Positions 12,859-21,486 of a DNA stretch of 64,000 nt are shown here, one piece after another (within the stretch, counting starts at the first letter, position 1; each line of letters begins with the position of its first letter). Where the stretch lies: NCBI GenBank assembly GCA_000702085.1, contig JNKP01000006.1:124001-188000 (forward strand), read 5' to 3'. The stretch is from Lachnospiraceae bacterium P6A3. GTDB lineage: Bacteria; Bacillota; Clostridia; Lachnospirales; Lachnospiraceae. The notes beneath the pieces were generated by a model that was not told the DNA's origin, did not search any database, and saw nothing but the letters and a program-made list of their open reading frames with translations. The translations under genes were made by a program, and so were the position numbers.

Positions 12859-14151
12859 TTAACAGCTGTAGTTAAACATCATTCCGCTGTAGATACTCGA
12901 TGTATAAGGGGATGACAGATTGTGTCCCGGATTCTTATAAGCGACCACTTTGCGGTTTACATACTGCATGGGATCCAGCGAAACCTGCGAACTTTTTTTC
13001 ATCATCGAGTTCGAGAAGTCTTTAAGCGTACTGAAAGTTTTTCCTATATCATCGCTTTCTTCAGCAACTTCTCTGAGCTTATCCGAATCGATCGAAAGCG
13101 ATCCGTTGCTTTCGACATTGATACCGAGACTTCCCAGTGCATCTTTGTATGCTCCGGTGATGCCGCTTAATTCATTGTCGAGAAGCCTTGTCTTGATGCC
13201 CTGTCCCGTATAGGAGTTAACGGCTTTGAGGAAATCGTTGAAACTTCCGATAACCTGGCCAACATTTTCTTCAACCGATTCGATGTCCGCTTTGATGCTG
13301 ATGGTTGTGGGTTTTCCTTCGGGACTGAGCTCATTTAAAGTAACTTCATACATCTTGCCGATGGTGAAGTGGTTGGATGAAGCGTTTCTGTCCTCACCGT
13401 TTAATGAAAATACCGCATTGGTGGGATAGCTGCTTACTTTATCGAGTCCGAAATAGTCAACCGATCCGGAAGCTTTGGATGTGCGGTCATCGCTTATGGA
13501 GAATATGGTATCCTTGCCTGCGCTTACACCGCTTGAATCGGAAGTGATTCTGATCGCGGAATTATTACCTTCGGTTTCAAGTGATGCACTTAAGCCTATG
13601 CCGGCATTGTTTACCAGTCTTACAAGTCTTTCCTGAATACTTCTGTTGGTTTCGTCTTCGGAGATATGGAACTGGAATTCATAGTTCATATCACCGATGC
13701 TGACGTCAAATGAATAATTGTCTTCGGGAAGCGATACGGGATCGTTGGGAAGGTAATTACCCAGGTTCTCCTGAGGAGATGCCAGCTGTTTTACTTCGAT
13801 ATCGAAAGAAGGAACGGATTCCGTATTGTCATCACCTATGAAGTCGACCGATACGGTATCGGGATCCGTTGAAGCGGCGTGCTTTTTGTTAAAGGCTCCG
13901 TCTTCGTCAAGACCGCCGACTTCCGCAAGAGACGCACGAAGATTACGAGCGGATTCTTTTAATCCGATCGCACCTATCTTGGCCTCCTGATCCTTTACGG
14001 GAAGATACCAGGGAGCATCTTTATTTGCTTTGACGATGGAATTGTAAGTACTGCGAAGCTCACTCTTCTTGTGAGTGTCGTACTTGGATATCTTCGGGGC
14101 GCCGAACGCCGTCAGATAGTTGTTGAATATTGTGTTACTAACAGCACTCAT
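12859..14151 (-). CDS. FliD-like flagellar cap/hook-associated protein
   Basis: About 430 residues. It resembles the FliD (HAP2) family: a central DNYSFDVSIGDMNYEFQFHI strand region, a VNNAGIGLSASL segment typical of FliD N-terminal domains, and a C-terminal DFLKAVNSYTGQGIKTRLL...ITGAYKDALGSLGINVESNGSLSID block matching the FliD C-terminal domain. The extreme N-terminus is long and atypical. I prefer ATG 14151 (GGGGG seven bases upstream) to the GTG at 14157. A sigma-28-like promoter about 260 bases upstream fits flagellar control. It could be a paralogue of the true cap, since no fliS or fliC is beside it. Confidence 0.7.
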   Translation of the reverse strand: MSAVSNTIFNNYLTAFGAPKISKYDTHKKSELRSTYNSIVKANKDAPWYLPVKDQEAKIGAIGLKESARNLRASLAEVGGLDEDGAFNKKHAASTDPDTVSVDFIGDDNTESVPSFDIEVKQLASPQENLGNYLPNDPVSLPEDNYSFDVSIGDMNYEFQFHISEDETNRSIQERLVRLVNNAGIGLSASLETEGNNSAIRITSDSSGVSAGKDTIFSISDDRTSKASGSVDYFGLDKVSSYPTNAVFSLNGEDRNASSNHFTIGKMYEVTLNELSPEGKPTTISIKADIESVEENVGQVIGSFNDFLKAVNSYTGQGIKTRLLDNELSGITGAYKDALGSLGINVESNGSLSIDSDKLREVAEESDDIGKTFSTLKDFSNSMMKKSSQVSLDPMQYVNRKVVAYKNPGHNLSSPYTSSIYSGMMFNYSC

Positions 14152-14157
14152 CGCCAC

Positions 14158-14412
14158 GCCCCCTTTCTTCCATGAAATGTGTGACAGCCGGTGCAGGCTT
14201 AAACCTGACTAAAGGATCCTTCCTTTTTATTAGAGTGGACATATATGGCAAACAGACCTAATATGCCACCATCAGACTATTAGTTAAGATTAAAGTATCA
14301 CCCCAAAGTCAAATTTGCAAGATGTTTTTTTAAGTAAAATAGCGGTTTTTCGGGCTTTGTTGTCGAAATTCTTTCATTCTCACGAGCTTAAGCTTGCAAT
14401 ATTCTGACTATT
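14158..14412 (-). promoter_or_regulatory. Long leader of the FliD-like gene
   Basis: This non-coding stretch lies between the sigma-28-like promoter (14421-14448) and the FliD-like start. On the minus strand it contains a short hairpin CAGG-TTTAAG-CCTG (about 14195-14208), an AAGGATCCTTT palindrome and a T-rich tract near 14330. A second, sigma-A-like start (TTGACT near 14311) is possible. No ORF of note is seen. Confidence 0.3.
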
Positions 14413-14420
14413 TAATAATT

Positions 14421-14448
14421 ATATCGGAATGTTCAGATAATTAGTTTA
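14421..14448 (-). promoter_or_regulatory. Sigma-28 (SigD/FliA)-type promoter
   Basis: On the minus strand: TAAA (14448-14445), 16 bases, then TCCGATAT (14428-14421). The Bacillus SigD pattern is TAAA, 14-16 bases, GCCGATAT, so this matches at all but one -10 position. It points at the FliD-like gene. Confidence 0.6.
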
Positions 14449-14515
14449 GCCTATATTATAGAAATAAGACCGTAAGGCGGCCGTCTAAATACTATGCAAT
14501 AAGCCCATTTTAATA

Positions 14516-14521
14516 TATAAT
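14516..14521 (+). promoter_or_regulatory. Candidate -10 of guaA
   Basis: A perfect TATAAT lies 25 bases before the guaA ATG, with no good -35 at 16-18 bases. An alternative TATTAT at 14453-14458 would give an 80-base leader. No purine riboswitch core is present. Confidence 0.3.
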
Positions 14522-14546
14522 TTAGGGCATTGAAAGGAATGGAAAG

Positions 14547-16178
14547 ATGGATAAAGAACTGGTATTGGTAATAGATTTCGGCGGTCAGTATAATCAGCTG
14601 GTCGCAAGAAGAGTAAGAGAAAACAATGTATATTGCGAAATCTACTCTTATAAAACTCCTTTGGATCAGATCAAGGCGATGAATCCCAAGGGAATCATTC
14701 TTACCGGCGGACCCAACAGCGTCTACGAAGAGGGTGCCGCAGCCTGTGACAAAGAACTCTTTAAAATGGGTGTTCCCGTTCTCGGGCTTTGCTACGGTGC
14801 GCAGCTCATGAGCTTTCTTCTCGGAGGTAATGTCGAAAAGGCTCCCGTAAGGGAATACGGACATACTCCTCTTAAGGTTGATACCTCATCTCCCGTTTTT
14901 GAAGGTGTAACGGAAAATACAACATGCTGGATGAGCCATAATGATTACATATCAAAGATTGCTCCCGGCTTCAAATCTATCGCAACCACAGATAATTGTC
15001 CTTACGCAGCGATTGCAAATGATGCGGAGAATCTTTACGGATTCCAGTATCATCCCGAAGTTCTTCATACTCCCGAAGGAACCAGGATGCTCGGCAATTT
15101 CCTCTACAATGTATGTCATTGCAAGGGCGATTGGAAGATGAGTTCTTTTGCGGAAGAGCAGATTAAGCTTATCAGGGAAAAGGTCGGAGACGGAAAAGTT
15201 CTCTGTGCACTTTCCGGCGGTGTAGATTCTTCCGTTGCTGCCGTTCTTTTATCCAAGGCAGTAGGAAAACAGCTTACATGCGTATTCGTAGATCACGGTC
15301 TTCTCAGAAAAGACGAAGGTGACCAGGTTGAAGCAATCTTCGGACCTGAAGGACATTATGATCTTAACTTCATAAGAGTAAATGCCAAAGACAGATTTTA
15401 CGGAAAGCTCGCAGGCGTAACGGAGCCTGAGCGCAAGCGTAAAATAATCGGTGAGGAATTCATCAGAGTATTCGAAGAAGAAGCCAAGAAGATCGGAACT
15501 GTTGACTTCCTCGTACAGGGAACCATTTATCCCGATGTTGTTGAATCCGGACTGGGCGGAGAATCCGCTGTGATCAAGTCCCACCACAATGTCGGAGGAC
15601 TTCCCGATTATGTTGATTTCAAAGAGATCATTGAACCTCTCAGAAATCTCTTCAAAGACGAAGTAAGAAAGGTCGGACTTGAGCTCGGCATTCCCGACCA
15701 TCTTGTATTCAGACAGCCCTTCCCCGGACCGGGACTCGGCATACGTATCATCGGTGATATTACCGCAGAAAAAGTTGCCATCGTTCAGGATGCGGACTTT
15801 ATCTACAGAGAAGAAGTTGAAAAGGCTGCCAACGAGTATGCGCTTGAAGCAGCAAAGGCAGCAGGAGTTAATATCGACAGAGATCATCCCGACCATGCGC
15901 TCCTCAGAAGCTATTGGCCCGAGTGGATGCCCAATCAGTATTTTGCAGCTCTTACCAATATGAGATCCGTAGGCGTTATGGGTGATGAGAGAACTTACGA
16001 TCACGCCGTGGCACTCCGCGCAGTCAAGACCATTGACTTCATGACCGCAGAGTCCGCTCAGATCCCTTATGAGATCCTAATGCAGGTTATGAACCGCATC
16101 ATCAACGAGGTAAAGGGAGTAAACAGAGTACTCTACGACCTTACTTCGAAGCCTCCCGGGACCGTGGAACTGGAGTGA
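14547..16178 (+). CDS. guaA: GMP synthase (glutamine-hydrolysing)
   Basis: 543 residues; converts XMP to GMP with glutamine as nitrogen donor. The N-terminal class I amidotransferase has its nucleophile in GLCYGAQLM and its histidine/glutamate in YHPEV. The ATP pyrophosphatase P-loop is [11 protein letters not shown], and the C-terminal dimerisation domain ends [17 protein letters not shown]. Usual length is about 510-525; the extra residues are an insertion in the C-terminal domain (after [16 protein letters not shown], with [17 protein letters not shown]) just before the [13 protein letters not shown] block. AAAGGA precedes the ATG. Monocistronic in this window. Confidence 0.96.
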
Positions 16179-16293
16179 CCCTGCTTAGCCATTTGGAGGA
16201 TAAGGCAGGTTGCCCGGTGATTCCTGCGCTGTGCCATAAATACTTTGGAGGCAGAGCATCATTTACTTTCAAATATAGAATTATGCGTTTTAC

Positions 16294-16330
16294 GATGCCC
16301 GAAACCCAATTAATGGTGGTTTCGGGCATC
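16294..16330 (+). terminator. Hairpin after guaA; also first unit of repeat array U
   Basis: A 13-base perfect stem GATGCCCGAAACC / GGTTTCGGGCATC with an 11-base loop, 115 bases after the guaA stop and followed by GAAATCTTTT. It could terminate guaA. It is also exactly 37 bp, starts GATGC and ends GCATC, and stands 25 bp before the next such unit, so it is in register with the array that follows. Confidence 0.6.
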
Positions 16331-16891
16331 GAAATCTTTTGAGAATCTTTCTTTTGATGCTATTCGCTTGTCCATCCCCGGACAAGGCATCAATAATCCT
16401 CAGAAGTTAATATTCCGATGCTTTTTCGAGAACTTTCGTCCCGGCAAAGCATCAAAAATCCCAACCATTTTAATCTTAGATGCTTTTTATGTCTGCGCAA
16501 AACTGCGGAGGCATCGAAAAACATGGACAGCGCAGAAATTGATGCTTTTTGGGTGTTCGGGCAAGCGAAGAAGCATCAAAATCTCTCGAATCCGCAGAAG
16601 TTGATGCTTTTTGGGTGGTCAGGCATGAGGATAAGCATCAAAAAACAGGGAATGTGCCCAGGTTGATGCCTTTTGGGTGTTCGGACATGCGAAGAAGCAT
16701 CAAAAAACAGGTAATGTGCCCAAGTTGATGCTTTTCGGGTAGTCGGGCAAGCGAAGAAGCATCAAAATCCTTTGGATTCGTGGAAATTGATGCTTTTTGG
16801 GTGTTCGGGCAAGCGAAGAAGCATCAAAACCACGCGAGTCCTCGGAAATTGATGCTTATTCGATTCTTTGCTGTCCCGAGAACATAGGATC
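16294..16891 (+). repeat. Hairpin repeat array U: 9 units plus terminal half unit, 62-bp period
   Basis: Units run from GATGC to GCATC and start at 16294, 16356, 16417, 16479, 16541, 16603, 16665, 16727 and 16789. All are 37 bp except the second (36). Every spacer is exactly 25 bp. A tenth start at 16851 keeps the register but lacks the closing arm. The typical unit is GATGCTTTTT - 17-base loop - AAGAAGCATC, so it folds into a 10-12 bp hairpin, usually extended by flanking TT...AA. Units at 16541-16825 are close copies; earlier units share only the stem ends. Spacers are partly conserved (AAAA at the 5' end, GAAATT or AAGTT at the 3' end). The 62-bp period is not a multiple of three and no convincing gene covers it. 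The region fills the gap between guaA and the nuclease-like gene. Confidence 0.95.
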
Positions 16892-16928
16892 AAGTGCGCC
16901 CGTTGATGAAAAAAGAAAGGAAATTCAA

Positions 16929-17762
16929 ATGAACAGAAATAATTACTCAGGAATGCTCCATTCATCCGGTTTGTATGAGGAGGCCCAAAGACGCTGTCTT
17001 GAGCTATCTGATTGCAAGATGCATATTGAGAGCGAACTTCGGAAAGCTCCGGCTGGTATCATACACGTAGTGAATAGTAGAAGCAGAATACAATTTTATA
17101 ACCGCAAAAACAAAACTGATACATCCGGAAAATATATCCGCAAATCAGAAAAACAGATCATTCGGGCGCTGCTTCAAAAAACGTACAATCAAAAAGCTTT
17201 GAAATTGCTGAATGAAGAAATTGGAAATCTCAATCTGCTACAGAAGAGATCAAACGGTATTTCGGAGAGGATAAGGAAGCTGTATTCCAATCTTCCGTCG
17301 GAAATAAAGGAATACATAAATCCTATCGATAAATCAGATGAGGATTTCATTGCAGAATGGATGAACATACCTTACGATGGAAAAGAGATTTCCGAGCAAA
17401 TGCCTGTATTTGTAACTGAGCGCGGAGAAAGAGTGCGCTCCAAATCTGAGCTGAACATAGCAAACAAACTAGCGGAAAATCATATTCCCTACAAGTATGA
17501 GTGTCCACTGATCTTGTCAAAAGGGACGGTGATATATCCGGACTTCACAATCATGGATGTGAAAAAACGGAAAGAAATCTACTGGGAACACAGAGGAATG
17601 ATGGACGACAGAGAGTATGCACGTCAGGCCGTATTTAAAATGAAATCCATGATGAATGCAGGGATCGTGATCGGGAAAAATCTGATCATAACAGAGGAAA
17701 CATATGCAAATCCTTTGGGAACAAATGAGATAGACAAAATGATAGCCGAATATTTCTGTTAA
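16929..17762 (+). CDS. PD-(D/E)XK nuclease-like protein
   Basis: 277 residues. I do not recognise a named family, but the C-terminal half has the PD-(D/E)XK layout: SKSE (Glu174), a strand ending YPDF (Asp205) and YWEH (Glu220-His221). This gives an E...D...E-x-(H/K) active site as in several orphan nucleases from Firmicutes and their phages. The N-terminal half is helical and lysine-rich (coiled-coil-like, about 70-125) and could bind nucleic acid. The frame is open upstream to 16797, but that part runs through repeat units; ATG 16929 has AAAGGA eight bases before it. The gene is AT-rich (22 G/C of 60 at 17161-17220) compared with guaA (34 of 60 at 15541-15600). It sits directly after array U. 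Confidence 0.55.
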   Translation: MNRNNYSGMLHSSGLYEEAQRRCLELSDCKMHIESELRKAPAGIIHVVNSRSRIQFYNRKNKTDTSGKYIRKSEKQIIRALLQKTYNQKALKLLNEEIGNLNLLQKRSNGISERIRKLYSNLPSEIKEYINPIDKSDEDFIAEWMNIPYDGKEISEQMPVFVTERGERVRSKSELNIANKLAENHIPYKYECPLILSKGTVIYPDFTIMDVKKRKEIYWEHRGMMDDREYARQAVFKMKSMMNAGIVIGKNLIITEETYANPLGTNEIDKMIAEYFC

Positions 17763-17835
17763 AATGTGGCGGAATCTTGATTGCAGATATACTCGTTATA
17801 AGTATTATACGCAATAAAATGTTAGGAATATTATT

Positions 17836-18603
17836 ATGACTGACTTTACAACTGTTACAGCCTGCGGCGAGTGCTGCACCGGATGTTCAAAAAAGAAAGA
17901 AGGAATATGCCCGGGATGTATAGAAACTGACGGATGCGTTCCGGAATGGGCAGAATCTGGGAGATGCAAAATACACGCATGCTGTAAGGAACACAATGCA
18001 CGCTTTTGCGGTGTGTGCAATGAATTTCCATGTGAGAAAATTACTCGGATCATTTCATGGAACCCCGACATTGTGCAGTATCTATCGGCATTGGGAGATG
18101 AATACATGATACAGAATATTTCGGATAAGTACGCGGTACGGGTATTGTCTGAAAATGATATTCCTGCTGTCTTGACACTTTGTGAGAAAAACAAACTTTA
18201 TTATCAATACTGTCCTCCTTTTGTCAGCGAAGAAAGTATTCGAGATGATATGAAGGCTCTTCCGCCGGGGAAGGGGAAGCAAGATAAATTCTATATAGGC
18301 TTTTATGATAACGAAGATTTGGTAGCAGTAATGGATCTGATCAGGGAATTCCCTGATGACAAAACTATATTTATAGGGTTCTTTATGACGGATGTGTCAG
18401 TTCAGAATAAAGGTGTTGGATCGGGAATTATCACTGAATTATGTGAGAAACTCAGCCAAAGGGGTTATTTATATGTCAAACTCGGATGGGTTAAAGGAAA
18501 TCCGCAGGCTGAGTGTTTTTGGAAGAAAAACGGATTTAACGAAACAGGAGCAGAAAATACGACGAAGGATTATACAGTAACCATAGCCCAGAGGAAAATA
18601 TAG
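17836..18603 (+). CDS. DUF3795-like zinc domain fused to GNAT acetyltransferase
   Basis: 255 residues. The N-terminal 70 residues are cysteine-rich in the DUF3795 style (CGECCTGC, then CPGC, CKIHACC, CGVC and CEKI), probably a metal-binding domain. From about residue 100 a GNAT domain follows, with the acetyl-CoA loop VQNKGVGSGI and a C-terminal FWKKNGF segment typical of these enzymes. The substrate is unknown. Small DUF3795 proteins are common in clostridia; the fusion is less usual. It lies 73 bases after the nuclease-like gene and one base before the frame of the methyltransferase, inside the array-bracketed island. Confidence 0.7.
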   Translation: MTDFTTVTACGECCTGCSKKKEGICPGCIETDGCVPEWAESGRCKIHACCKEHNARFCGVCNEFPCEKITRIISWNPDIVQYLSALGDEYMIQNISDKYAVRVLSENDIPAVLTLCEKNKLYYQYCPPFVSEESIRDDMKALPPGKGKQDKFYIGFYDNEDLVAVMDLIREFPDDKTIFIGFFMTDVSVQNKGVGSGIITELCEKLSQRGYLYVKLGWVKGNPQAECFWKKNGFNETGAENTTKDYTVTIAQRKI

Positions 18604-18634
18604 GATGTTTTTTGAAATTCAGCGGAGGATACGG

Positions 18635-19390
18635 ATGGAAGATTACAGCATGCAGCATAAGAAAGCCTGGGAATTTGATGCTTACGATTTCTGGGTAAGA
18701 ACTGCAGGAACACCGGAAGAAAGAGCGACAAAGGATAAAGAAAATCCTAAGAAGATGCTGAAGCAGCATGCGGTTTATTTTGATTCTTTTGACGGTGTTA
18801 AGGTAGCAAATATTTGCGGTTCATGCGGAAAGAAGGCAGTACCTCTTGCAATCCTCGGAGCCGATGTTACGGTCTTTGACATTTCCGAAGATAATAAGAA
18901 ATACGCTGTCGAAACAGCTGAGGCTGCGGGCGTAAAGATCGGATATGAAGTTTGTGACATCATGAAGATTGATATGGACAGATATGCCGGATACTTTGAT
19001 GTGGTATTCATGGAAGGCGGGATTCTTCATTATTTTCATGACATAGATGCTTTCATGAGTATTATGAACGGACTGCTAAAACCTGATGGAAAGATGATCT
19101 GCAGCGACTTTCACCCGTTCACCAAGATCTCGGATATCCTGGGGCTTCAGCAACCTACCATGAGCTATTTCTCGACAGACATCTTTGAAGGAGAGATGGC
19201 GCACGCAAGATTTTACGATGAGGAGATCAGAAAGCAGATTCCAAAGTGCCATTATAGGAAGTACACCATCAGCGAGATCATCAATTCTATCATCAGGAAC
19301 GGATTTACCCTGGAGAGGTTTGATGAGCATCCCTCGTGGGAGAATGAGAAACTTCCCGGAGAGTTTACTGCGATAGCAAGAAAGAATTGA
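18635..19390 (+). CDS. Class I SAM-dependent methyltransferase
   Basis: 251 residues. Rossmann methyltransferase signs: VANICGSCGKKAVPLAILGA (motif I variant), VTVFDISEDN (motif II acidic end) and DVVFMEGGILHYF followed by LLKPDGKMICSDFHP (post-motifs). It resembles small-molecule methyltransferases of the UbiE/Tam type; the acceptor is unknown. I use ATG 18635 (GGAGG six bases upstream) rather than 18605. The stop codon TGA (19388-19390) overlaps the first base pairs of array V, so gene and repeat abut exactly. Confidence 0.75.
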   Translation: MEDYSMQHKKAWEFDAYDFWVRTAGTPEERATKDKENPKKMLKQHAVYFDSFDGVKVANICGSCGKKAVPLAILGADVTVFDISEDNKKYAVETAEAAGVKIGYEVCDIMKIDMDRYAGYFDVVFMEGGILHYFHDIDAFMSIMNGLLKPDGKMICSDFHPFTKISDILGLQQPTMSYFSTDIFEGEMAHARFYDEEIRKQIPKCHYRKYTISEIINSIIRNGFTLERFDEHPSWENEKLPGEFTAIARKN

Positions 19391-19722
19391 TGCTATTTTG
19401 TCTGCCCAAATCTTCGCGGCATCGAAAGCTAGCAAATCTACGGAAATCGATGATTTTTGGATAGGGAAGTCAGTGAAGAAGCATCGAAAGCCGGTGAATC
19501 TACGGAAATCGATGCTTTTTGGATAGGGAAGTAAGTGGAGAAGCATCGAAAGCCGGCGAATCTACGGAAATCGATGCCTTTTGCGTGGCCAAGCAAGTGA
19601 AGAATCATCAAAAGCTCGCAAACCCTCAGAAATTGATGCTGTTAGAGATGGCCGTAGCGGGAAAAGGCATCAATTATGGGATGCATTATAGTATTAGATG
19701 CTTAATCGGTTATTGAAACTTA
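19389..19722 (+). repeat. Hairpin repeat array V: 5 units plus terminal half unit
   Basis: Same architecture and orientation as array U. Units start at 19389 (35 bp), 19449, 19511, 19573 and 19635 (37 bp each), all with 25-bp spacers, and an unclosed unit starts in register at 19697. Here most stems are closed by TC...GA (TCGATGC / GCATCGA) instead of the TT...AA of array U, which keeps pairing. Three spacers are nearly identical (GAAAGCnnGnnAATCTACGG followed by AAATC). The terminal half unit begins GATGCTTAATCGGTTATTG, close to the terminal one of array U (GATGCTTATTCGATTCTTTG). The array occupies the gap between the methyltransferase and tetR genes. Confidence 0.93.
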
Positions 19723-19723
19723 T

Positions 19724-20272
19724 TTATTTTAAATATTTGGTATATGGCTTAAACAGCGTAAACAGGTGCGCTGCCATTTCTTCTGAAGTGTACGGAAATG
19801 ATTCTCTGAGCCACCATTCCGTCACACCCAGAAAACCGTTGGAAAGAAACTGTGTCGTGATATCTTTGGACGCAACCATTTCCTTGGGGAATTTGGTAAA
19901 TGCTGCATCAATCTGAGCACTTATGATCTCATGAAGTTTGCTCCTAAAGATTCCGGCTTTATCATTTTTGTATAAGAGGCTGTAGAGTTCTTTGTTTTCT
20001 TCCATGTAAGAAAACATTCCGGGGAGAGCATCTTTTTTAAGCTTTATCTGCGGTTCGCTCTTACAATGAATCGTAAGTTCTTCTAAATATTTATCTATAC
20101 ACTTTTCCAATATGTCATATTTATCAACAAAATGAAGGTAAACGGTTCCGCGATTGATATCTGCTCTTTCGGATATGTCGCGGATCGTTGTCTTCTCAAA
20201 TCCTTTTTCCCTGACAAGATCCATAAAGGTAGTCATTATCAGCTGCCTGGTTTTTTCTATTCTTCTGTCCAT
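19724..20272 (-). CDS. TetR/AcrR family transcriptional regulator
   Basis: 182 residues. N-terminal helix-turn-helix: TRQLIMTTFMDLVREKGFEKTTIRDISERADINRGTVYLHF (about residues 6-46), then YDILEKCIDKYL and a ligand-binding helical domain. The C-terminal part resembles the TetR_C groups of small Firmicute regulators. I use ATG 20272, which has GAAAGGA six bases before it. It is divergent from the ketopantoate-reductase-like gene, with two matching palindromes in the 153-base gap, so it probably represses itself and that gene. Confidence 0.85.
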   Translation of the reverse strand: MDRRIEKTRQLIMTTFMDLVREKGFEKTTIRDISERADINRGTVYLHFVDKYDILEKCIDKYLEELTIHCKSEPQIKLKKDALPGMFSYMEENKELYSLLYKNDKAGIFRSKLHEIISAQIDAAFTKFPKEMVASKDITTQFLSNGFLGVTEWWLRESFPYTSEEMAAHLFTLFKPYTKYLK

Positions 20273-20307
20273 AAACAGTCCTTTCAAATGAACAAATGTA
20301 TATGATG

Positions 20308-20323
20308 TGTTGATTAATCAACA
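20308..20323. promoter_or_regulatory. TetR operator O1 (palindrome)
   Basis: Perfect 16-bp palindrome TGTTGATTAATCAACA, 35 bases upstream of the tetR start. Confidence 0.7.
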
Positions 20324-20386
20324 TAATCCGGATTTTACTCATTGTTTTGGGAATGAGATGTCTTTAAGATGACGATAACAGACACG

Positions 20387-20402
20387 TGTTGATAAATCAA
20401 CA
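20387..20402. promoter_or_regulatory. TetR operator O2 (palindrome)
   Basis: TGTTGATAAATCAACA, the same as O1 except at one central base. With flanking G and C the arms extend to 8 bp (20386-20403). It lies 23 bases before the ketopantoate-reductase-like gene. Two near-identical palindromes in one divergent gap strongly suggest one dimeric regulator. Confidence 0.75.
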
Positions 20403-20425
20403 CATATTCATTAAAAGGAGAACGG

Positions 20426-21361
20426 ATGATGAAAATTTTATTTTTCGGAAGGGGAGCTATCGGAACACAGTATGCATGGGCATTTGAAAAGGCGGGGCAT
20501 ACTGTAGTGTTTTATGTCAGGGCGGGGAGAAGCGTGCAGTATGGCCCCTATGTTGACCTTAAGATTTCTGACGGACGAAGAAAGAAGAGAAAAACAGTAC
20601 AGGAGCGCTTTGATGTAAGTTTCATAGAAGAGATCGATCCGGAAGAAAAGTATGATCTTATGTTCTTCAGCATAAATCCCGAACAGGTTAAAGAAGCTGC
20701 CAAATATCTGGCACCGAGAGTCGGTGATTCAACTGTTTTATTTTTTAACAATTTCGGAAATGACCCATATGATGCAATGCTGCCGATCCCCAAAGATCAG
20801 ATTGTGGTCGGTTTTCCCGGAGCAGGCGGAGGATATGACGGGAACAAACTGTACGGAAATCTGTTTAAAGGAGTTCAGATCGGGATAAAGAAAGAAGCGC
20901 CTGATGCACGGGAAAGAATGGTTCTTGACCTGTTTGCATCCTCCGGTTTTAAGATTAGTGAAAAACACGATATACAGAATTTTTTGATCAATCATTATGT
21001 GGCAAATGCCGCTATGGAGGCGGAGGTTATAAAGACAGGAAGCTTTAAGAACGTGGCAGACAGTAAGGAAGCTTTGACGGGAATGTTTGAAAATATAAGG
21101 GAGATGATTCCCTATCTTAAGGCTAAAAATGTAACGCCCGACCTTTCAGTGAGGTTATTGGCTTTGCTTCCTCCACGCGCCATGGCCGGTCTTCTGAAAA
21201 TGACTTTATATTCTCCGAAAAGCATGGCCTACGAAGCACTTGCTCATAACGGTTTCAAAGCAGGATATGCGGTGAAGGAAATAGTCGGTGAAGCGGATGA
21301 ACTGGGGGTAAGTCTTCCGAGACTTAAAGAGTCGCTTGAGCAAACGGAAAAAGAAGAATGA
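20426..21361 (+). CDS. Ketopantoate reductase-like (ApbA/PanE) protein
   Basis: 311 residues of the ketopantoate reductase superfamily. N-terminal NAD(P) motif ILFFGRGAIGTQYAWAFEKAGH (about 4-25), then a helical C-terminal domain with NFLINHYVANAAMEAEV. True PanE makes pantoate for coenzyme A; this copy sits next to a TetR regulator and outside any pantothenate cluster, so it may reduce another 2-keto acid or act as a general oxidoreductase. The start is ATGATG; AAAAGGAG lies five to eight bases upstream. Regulation by the adjacent TetR through O2 is inferred. Confidence 0.7.
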   Translation: MMKILFFGRGAIGTQYAWAFEKAGHTVVFYVRAGRSVQYGPYVDLKISDGRRKKRKTVQERFDVSFIEEIDPEEKYDLMFFSINPEQVKEAAKYLAPRVGDSTVLFFNNFGNDPYDAMLPIPKDQIVVGFPGAGGGYDGNKLYGNLFKGVQIGIKKEAPDARERMVLDLFASSGFKISEKHDIQNFLINHYVANAAMEAEVIKTGSFKNVADSKEALTGMFENIREMIPYLKAKNVTPDLSVRLLALLPPRAMAGLLKMTLYSPKSMAYEALAHNGFKAGYAVKEIVGEADELGVSLPRLKESLEQTEKEE

Positions 21362-21486
21362 AACCATATAACGAAGTTTATCAAAGCCTGTGCAAAAGCG
21401 CATAATCTGTTGTAAGTGAAAAATTGATAAGGTATACTTATCGCAAATCGGACAAGATCCGTGAAAGCAATTCGGAGGCTGAATTT

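Follow-up and report, generated by a model that had tools for sequence, protein, structure and literature searches.

In ToxIN, a type III toxin-antitoxin system, tandem repeats lie directly upstream of the nuclease gene, and in the BIME-2 elements of enterobacteria alternating inverted units with fixed linker lengths occupy intergenic DNA. BIME units are longer palindromes than those described below and are not known to have a cognate PD-(D/E)XK nuclease alongside, and we know of no linker steps of one helical turn in them. In the REPIN-RAYT partnership, as PMC3116915 presents it, a chromosomal nuclease-type gene lies next to its own repeats, non-autonomous repeats are dispersed in extragenic space as inverted pairs, and a genome may hold several distinct repeat-enzyme sets. 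All these features are shared by the locus reported here, array U and the nuclease gene beside it in a 64,000-nucleotide stretch from Lachnospiraceae bacterium P6A3 (the window). The locus differs in its enzyme, HUH/Y1 there and PD-(D/E)XK-like here; in its repeats, 16-mer palindromic REPs predicted to form single-stranded DNA hairpins there and long phased arrays of 5-7-bp cores with free linkers here; and in having been found, in the genomes analysed here, only in one bacterial family. TIGR-Tas systems, as described in PMC12045711, likewise pair a protein gene with an array in which two repeat positions alternate and the repeat differs among loci, but their spacers are mostly 9 nt and their protein carries a Nop domain, whereas the intervals here are 25 bp and 17-49 bp (25/27 bp in array U), the protein has no Pfam match and the phasing follows DNA turns. 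The homing endonuclease I-Bth0305I (EDxHD / PD-(D/E)XK) resembles the present nuclease in predicted fold; around the latter's gene, however, no intron or intein was seen, the gene lies beside an array of presumed sites instead of interrupting one site, and the protein has a coiled-coil arm with a beta tip.

We propose that array U is probably the cognate double-stranded DNA (dsDNA) site array of the adjacent nuclease, the two together forming one nuclease-repeat element that works like REPIN-RAYT. Linkage, phasing, dispersed arrays, core-nuclease association and conserved active-site residues, all read from sequence, form the basis of this proposal, and from them we infer binding by the nuclease, dimer geometry, cutting, maintenance in trans and spread. 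The pair, whose site sequences keep changing across one family of gut bacteria, appears to be a genetic element of a kind not yet described; no earlier description of it or its relatives was found in the open-access PubMed Central literature, although absence there is no proof.

Array U and the adjacent nuclease

The features of the element in the window are the following:
16294..16855, no strand: array U, 19 alternating GATGC / GCATC cores, period 62 bp (six helical turns)
16326..16360, no strand: first of nine constant GCATC-N25-GATGC modules (proposed dimer site)
16387, 16449, 16511, 16573, 16635, 16697, 16759 and 16821: starts of the remaining eight modules (35 bp each)
16929..17762, + strand: 277-residue PD-(D/E)XK-like nuclease of the array-linked family
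17058..17105, + strand: codons 44-59, predicted beta-hairpin (strands 44-50 and 53-59), proposed recognition hairpin, residues varying with the core
17403..17759, + strand: codons 159-277, catalytic domain, predicted fold nearest to I-Bth0305I homing endonuclease, TnsA and Bax1
19389..19701, no strand: second array, core GATGC, period 62 bp, no nuclease gene alongside

Array U had been described, in a prediction made from the letters alone, as nine GATGC...GCATC hairpin units with spacers of exactly 25 bp and an unclosed tenth unit in register. This layout was confirmed: the nine units (16294-16825) measure 37, 36, 37, 37, 37, 37, 37, 37 and 37 bp, all eight spacers between them are exactly 25 bp, and an unclosed GATGC stands at 16851. 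Unit length and core were indeed preserved while the loops drifted, since the loops of units 1-4 are only 7-30% identical, about chance level, and still 27 or 26 bp long. Loop identity among units 5-9 reaches 74-100%, and these are clearly recent tandem duplicates. The claim about the base pair outside the stem stood for units 1, 2 and 5-9, whereas units 3 (C..A) and 4 (A..G) are unpaired there. The original prediction stopped 38 bp before the start of the nuclease gene and did not take in the second same-core array (19389-19701); two further same-core arrays lie on other contigs of the source genome (C1:105016-105298 and C2:233282-233534). The exact three-core pattern had 14-16 matches per strand in the source genome and none for the reversed control, which gave one match over all 397 genomes of the family, and array U is therefore not a product of chance. 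As had been said, it is not a CRISPR: its cores alternate in orientation instead of forming direct repeats, and many relatives have alike spacers between units. Foreign origin of the spacers was rejected, no match to array U DNA being present in phages or plasmids at E 0.1. The polarity of array growth was tested, was not significant, and none is claimed.

The 277-residue protein matched nothing in Pfam and nothing above cut-off in NCBIfam, and searches for solved relatives by sequence gave three matches above E 0.05, none credible. Its AlphaFold2 model (predicted local distance difference test score 91) has a PD-(D/E)XK-like fold and matches I-Bth0305I, TnsA, Bax1 and VRR_NUC in the VIA-align structure list, absence from which excludes nothing beyond the families named. 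Residues E174, D205, E220 and H221 are invariant in 136 of 136 relatives, and we assign E174, D205 and E220/H221 as candidate catalytic residues; the motifs SKSE, PDF and WEH were recognised by eye. The conserved E...D...E-type site within the predicted fold agrees with membership of the PD-(D/E)XK superfamily, the protein's last motif being E-H-R, not E-x-K, with R222 conserved in 76/136. The ratio of non-synonymous to synonymous substitution rates in the nuclease was 0.13-0.29. With regard to REPIN-RAYT, the missing Pfam match and the modelled fold set the protein apart from Y1/HUH enzymes, and we favour an element that works like REPIN-RAYT with an enzyme of another kind.

Linkage of arrays to one nuclease family

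Among the first 14 loci carrying the pattern (the window and 13 others), the nuclease or a homologue adjoined the array in five, always with the array on its 5' side. A linkage sample of 141 loci was then compiled from the window, the best 80 of the 117 nuclease loci in genome_contigs, the second nuclease of the source genome and 59 loci chosen among the matches listed; five were removed as duplicates at 97% or more, leaving 136 non-redundant loci. One kb on each side was scanned for inverted 5-mers of any sequence that alternate at a period of 48-100 bp, and the threshold was set at a score of 6 because none of 834 dinucleotide shuffles scored above 5. An array was found upstream of the nuclease in 100 of the 133 testable non-redundant loci (92/116 where at least 800 bp of upstream sequence was present), downstream in 14/135 and on either side in 103/136. 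Ten of the 80 genome_contigs loci start less than 500 bases from a contig end on the 5' side, as would be expected if arrays break assemblies; if the element spreads, it may account for some assembly breaks and unnamed nucleases in the family. The array-nuclease architecture appears to recur with unrelated sequences in many genera and with a fixed tie to one gene family. This tie, the sharing of the architecture across genera, the keeping of length where loops are mutually random, and a neighbour gene without a tyrosine transposase domain leave scarcely any room for an ordinary tandem repeat or functionless fragments of a known insertion sequence or REP family, despite the clear tandem duplication of units 5-9.

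Relatives of the nuclease occur in 125 of the 397 family genomes, with up to six per genome, and in 16 of the 31 genomes of the genus. In a sample of the phylum 7/398 genomes matched, five of them from the same family (Lachnospiraceae); the other two matches begin only at residue 122 or 153, within larger open frames. No relative was found in viral contigs. Matches in phages were limited to three unannotated records (29-34% identity), of which one spanned 94% of the length. In plasmids there were eight records spanning 23-43% of the length; seven of these carry ATPase or helicase annotations and one has none. On these results virus or plasmid cargo was rejected.

The position of the array in the 5' region of the gene might also suit an operator and decoy by which the gene is repressed and its nuclease kept inactive, foreign DNA being what the nuclease attacks and dispersed arrays serving to titrate it. 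The presence of up to six relatives per genome is in keeping with such a defence role, as are protein matches: in PADLOC, residues 151-275 match the end of the large candidate defence protein PDC-S68 (E 4.7e-28), and a related domain terminates AAA ATPases or a RecD-like helicase on plasmids. We nevertheless consider it unlikely, given that arrays also lie downstream and far away, that the gene neighbours in the window (guaA, a GNAT/DUF3795 protein, a methyltransferase, TetR and an ApbA-like reductase) are unlike a defence island, and that viral contigs gave no relative and phages only the three records above.

Helical phasing of a fixed module

The periods of the 100 upstream arrays fell into four groups, 51-54 bp (24 arrays), 61-64 bp (54), 71-75 bp (19) and 83-84 bp (3), with none between, and these classes are five to eight turns of B-DNA. 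The best-fitting repeat was 10.4 bp, with a mean resultant length of 0.90, although the optimum was broad (0.87-0.89 from 10.0 to 11.0 bp). On a quick maximum-likelihood tree of the 136 nucleases, with 57 of its 133 inner branches open, the period class changes at least 20 times (103 labelled rows; L136 and L146 were set by hand and three loci were taken from the downstream array). The sisters L095 (73 bp) and L098 (84 bp), for example, share the core GATGC and are nested among 62-bp relatives, and single cores occur at several periods: GATGC at 62, 73 and 84, GTTGC at 62 and 84, and GCTGT at 62-63 and 73 bp. When a core is written X and its reverse complement rcX, the rcX-to-X distance in these cores stays at 29-31 bp, whereas each step adds about 11 to the X-to-rcX distance. 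Over all arrays, two without a fitting register being left out, 538 of 581 spacer distances were 29-31, a figure partly set by the chosen register, and 461 of 505 loop distances lay within 22-24, 32-34, 41-45 or 53-54. The constant object is rcX-N25-X and the variable object is the linker, which changes in whole turns. The earlier view of unit plus spacer has therefore to be inverted, the supposed hairpin loop being the part that varies in length among relatives. In these one-turn steps of linker length, nature has left a striking record of the helical phasing of B-DNA.

A fixed module with whole-turn linkers fits one dimer per module and all modules on one face. In the mechanism we propose, a nuclease dimer would bind each rcX-N25-X module (GCATC-N25-GATGC in array U) in dsDNA, with the beta-hairpin at the tip of the coiled-coil arm reading each core and the catalytic domains positioned near the module dyad; the 34-residue arm helix (about 50 Å) would span about 15 bp, which is how far the dyad lies from the core. 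With linkers of about 18, 27, 38 or 49 bp all modules would share one helix face, and adjacent dimers could line up or cooperatively bend DNA.

The composition of the arrays was also patterned. In each of three separate groups of arrays, A/T-rich blocks occur inside N25 near positions 3-6, 12-14 and 20-22 (0, 0 and 1 of 1000 shuffles for the three groups); the blocks are 8-9 bp apart, not 10.4. Linkers of 27, 28 and 38 bp are patterned too (best periods 11.5, 9.25 and 10.75), whereas 18-bp linkers are not. Class-averaged A/T power peaks at 5, 6, 7 and 8 cycles per unit in 5-, 6-, 7- and 8-turn arrays, by a narrow margin in the 6- and 7-turn classes. With the cores masked the helical harmonic was still raised (0.088 vs 0.052; 0/500), the second harmonic above being equally high (0.092) and the helical one ranking top in only 10 of 97 single arrays. 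The period quantisation is thus firm evidence, and the A/T pattern supports a structured site over a strict 10.4-bp comb. Period classes and A/T power together bear out the suggestion that 62 bp is close to six helical turns, with sites sharing one DNA face.

Phasing and A/T tracts, as well as intergenic dispersal and an orthologous solo array retained in the genome G421, might equally be expected of helically phased, possibly bent arrays that organise the nucleoid, with the nuclease as a domesticated partner. Presence and absence vary within one genus at guaA and ychF, however, cores change fast, and the invariant active-site residues would not be needed for a purely structural role, so that we hold such an architectural function to be rather improbable.

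A point that weighs against dsDNA sites is the strand asymmetry of the spacer: among 66 arrays with the 25-bp spacer (arrays of other spacer length were left out), A exceeded T on the nuclease-coding strand in 47 and the reverse held in 17, a bias that a symmetric dimer site leaves unexplained and that dsDNA modules alone would not need. It would suit an array transcribed as a stem-loop chain, whether as guide RNAs or as a type III antitoxin to the nuclease, as would repeats directly upstream of the nuclease gene in the manner of ToxIN, and a small pairing excess inside the loops (3.13 vs 3.04 of 7), which no partner swap reached. That the whole array is predicted to fold strongly (z -7.8) gives little support, because inverted cores alone produce such folding. 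Pairing beyond the core was at the level of partner swaps in three of four comparisons, and neither the hairpin as unit nor the RNA stem-loops of the original prediction were supported; RNA hairpins were rejected, as swapping partners within the array revealed no unit-specific pairing except that small loop excess. Furthermore, the region 14000-21000 had no Rfam match at E 1, the period moves in steps of the B-DNA turn, for which RNA would have no need, and arrays also occupy other places in the genome and sites downstream of the gene. The protein, lacking Pfam and NCBIfam assignments, is not recognisable as a ToxN/CptN/TenpN-type toxin, and unlike in ToxIN the repeats diverge freely except for their cores. 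We therefore regard an RNA-level function as very improbable, and of the readings first offered it is binding sites that the data support.

Core specificity and dispersed arrays

Core similarity correlated with protein identity (r 0.43; permuted maximum 0.12). Where cores differ, the nucleases differ most at residues 47-57, a concentration reached by 3 of 200 core shuffles (L138 was dropped from alignment A2 for a stop codon), and in the predicted structure these residues form a beta-hairpin. In orthologous arrays 1/120 core sites had changed vs 44/611 other sites, with no indel (Fisher 0.006), two of the three comparisons sharing one array and each alone not being significant. Core and recognition hairpin would, in our proposal, change together. 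If it is right, there are many natural core specificities, each spelled out repeatedly in its own arrays, and a recognition code between protein hairpin and DNA core should be readable from genomes. Good material for such a code is offered by L131, L145 and L150, whose nucleases are 76-81% identical and have three different cores. By eye, genomes with at least two array-bearing nucleases in the sample have a different core at each: the window and L196; L131 and L150; L132 and L160 (similar, not the same); L106 and L123; L221, L237 and L251; L217 and L254; L212 and L249.

The source genome (G000) holds a second nuclease, L196 (C1:589590-590393), with another core. GGCTAT-N25-ATAGCC arrays of period 73 were found at 13 places in this genome, one of them beside the L196 gene, with 45 exact modules and one isolated match of the kind that the control also gives. 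The 12 remaining places lie between larger open reading frames, three of them touching a neighbouring or short one. Dispersed repeats with a single cognate gene, as in REPIN-RAYT, are therefore present. Among the 31 genomes of the genus, GGCTAT arrays occurred in G000, G410 and G409 (three sites). Of these, G000 and G410 also have a full-length cognate nuclease (at least 79%), so that arrays were present in 2/2 genomes with the nuclease vs 1/29 others; five more genomes had one or two matches, the same as the reversed control. In G412 a diverged cognate (69%) is truncated where its contig ends and a fragment (87%) is also present; GGCTAAT arrays lie on both contigs. In the same set, 62-bp GATGC arrays were found in G000, G410, G412, G421 and G422 and in none of the 26 others, and a close orthologue of the window nuclease in G000, G410 and G412 (3/3 vs 2/28; Fisher 0.002, rows not independent). 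The G415 relative L098, with GATGC at 84 bp, is invisible to the 62-bp pattern. Cognate arrays thus appear to accompany the nuclease, and some to remain where it was not found in incomplete assemblies.

On our reading, the nuclease gene and its array would be a single genetic element, gene-less array copies would be maintained in trans at other intergenic sites of the same genome, and the element most likely owes its persistence and spread to the nuclease, as a repeat element driven by it. If it does spread, it would be a second, independent invention of a REPIN-RAYT-type partnership in a large family of the gut and rumen. A more tentative possibility is that the element rewrites itself, phased dimers forming a DNA-wrapping filament, cut and repair driving array growth and dispersal, and hairpin mutations rewriting cores in concert so that older cores remain as fossils, such as GATGC, then GATGT, then GCTGT in G403, or GGCTAAT beside GGCTATA in G000.

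guaA, the neighbour of array U, is placed as follows:
14547..16178, + strand: guaA (GMP synthase)

In 26 of the 136 nuclease loci a guaA in the same orientation lies upstream, no more than about 1.5 kb away; these genes fall into two classes, 66-100% and 39-43% identical to the guaA of the window, which suggests either that guaA 3' ends are a preferred location or that the association is old. The element follows guaA in G000, G412 and G410, and in G406 with the core GGTGC, while in G403 a mixed array of GATGC, GATGT and then GCTGT stands after the gene. By eye, in L281 and L287, downstream of guaA, the core shifts from GATGC through GATGT to GCTGT/GAGACA types toward the nuclease. The element is absent in G421 and G409, whose guaA genes are 98 and 95% identical and are directly followed by an apparent homologue of window gene 21424. 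The order in the window (16178-21424) is guaA, array U, nuclease, GNAT/DUF3795, methyltransferase, array 2, TetR and ApbA-like reductase; in G421 and G409 the stretch between guaA and the 21424 gene is missing and the two are adjacent, so the stretch resembles an island with two arrays of one core. The methyltransferase gene (18605-19390) ends in a TGA that forms part of TTGATGC, the first core of array 2 (window 19388-19393). A terminator scan found none inside array U, and unit 1 as a guaA terminator is an impression by eye only.

A GGCTAT array lies upstream of ychF in G000 and G410 but in none of the 12 other genomes read, some of which offer little sequence upstream of the gene; in G000 it holds, by eye, both GGCTAAT and GGCTATA modules. 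In several genomes the sequences upstream of ychF resemble, by eye, the ends of tyrosine-recombinase genes (L323, L328 and L335), and the start of ychF may be an insertion hot spot.
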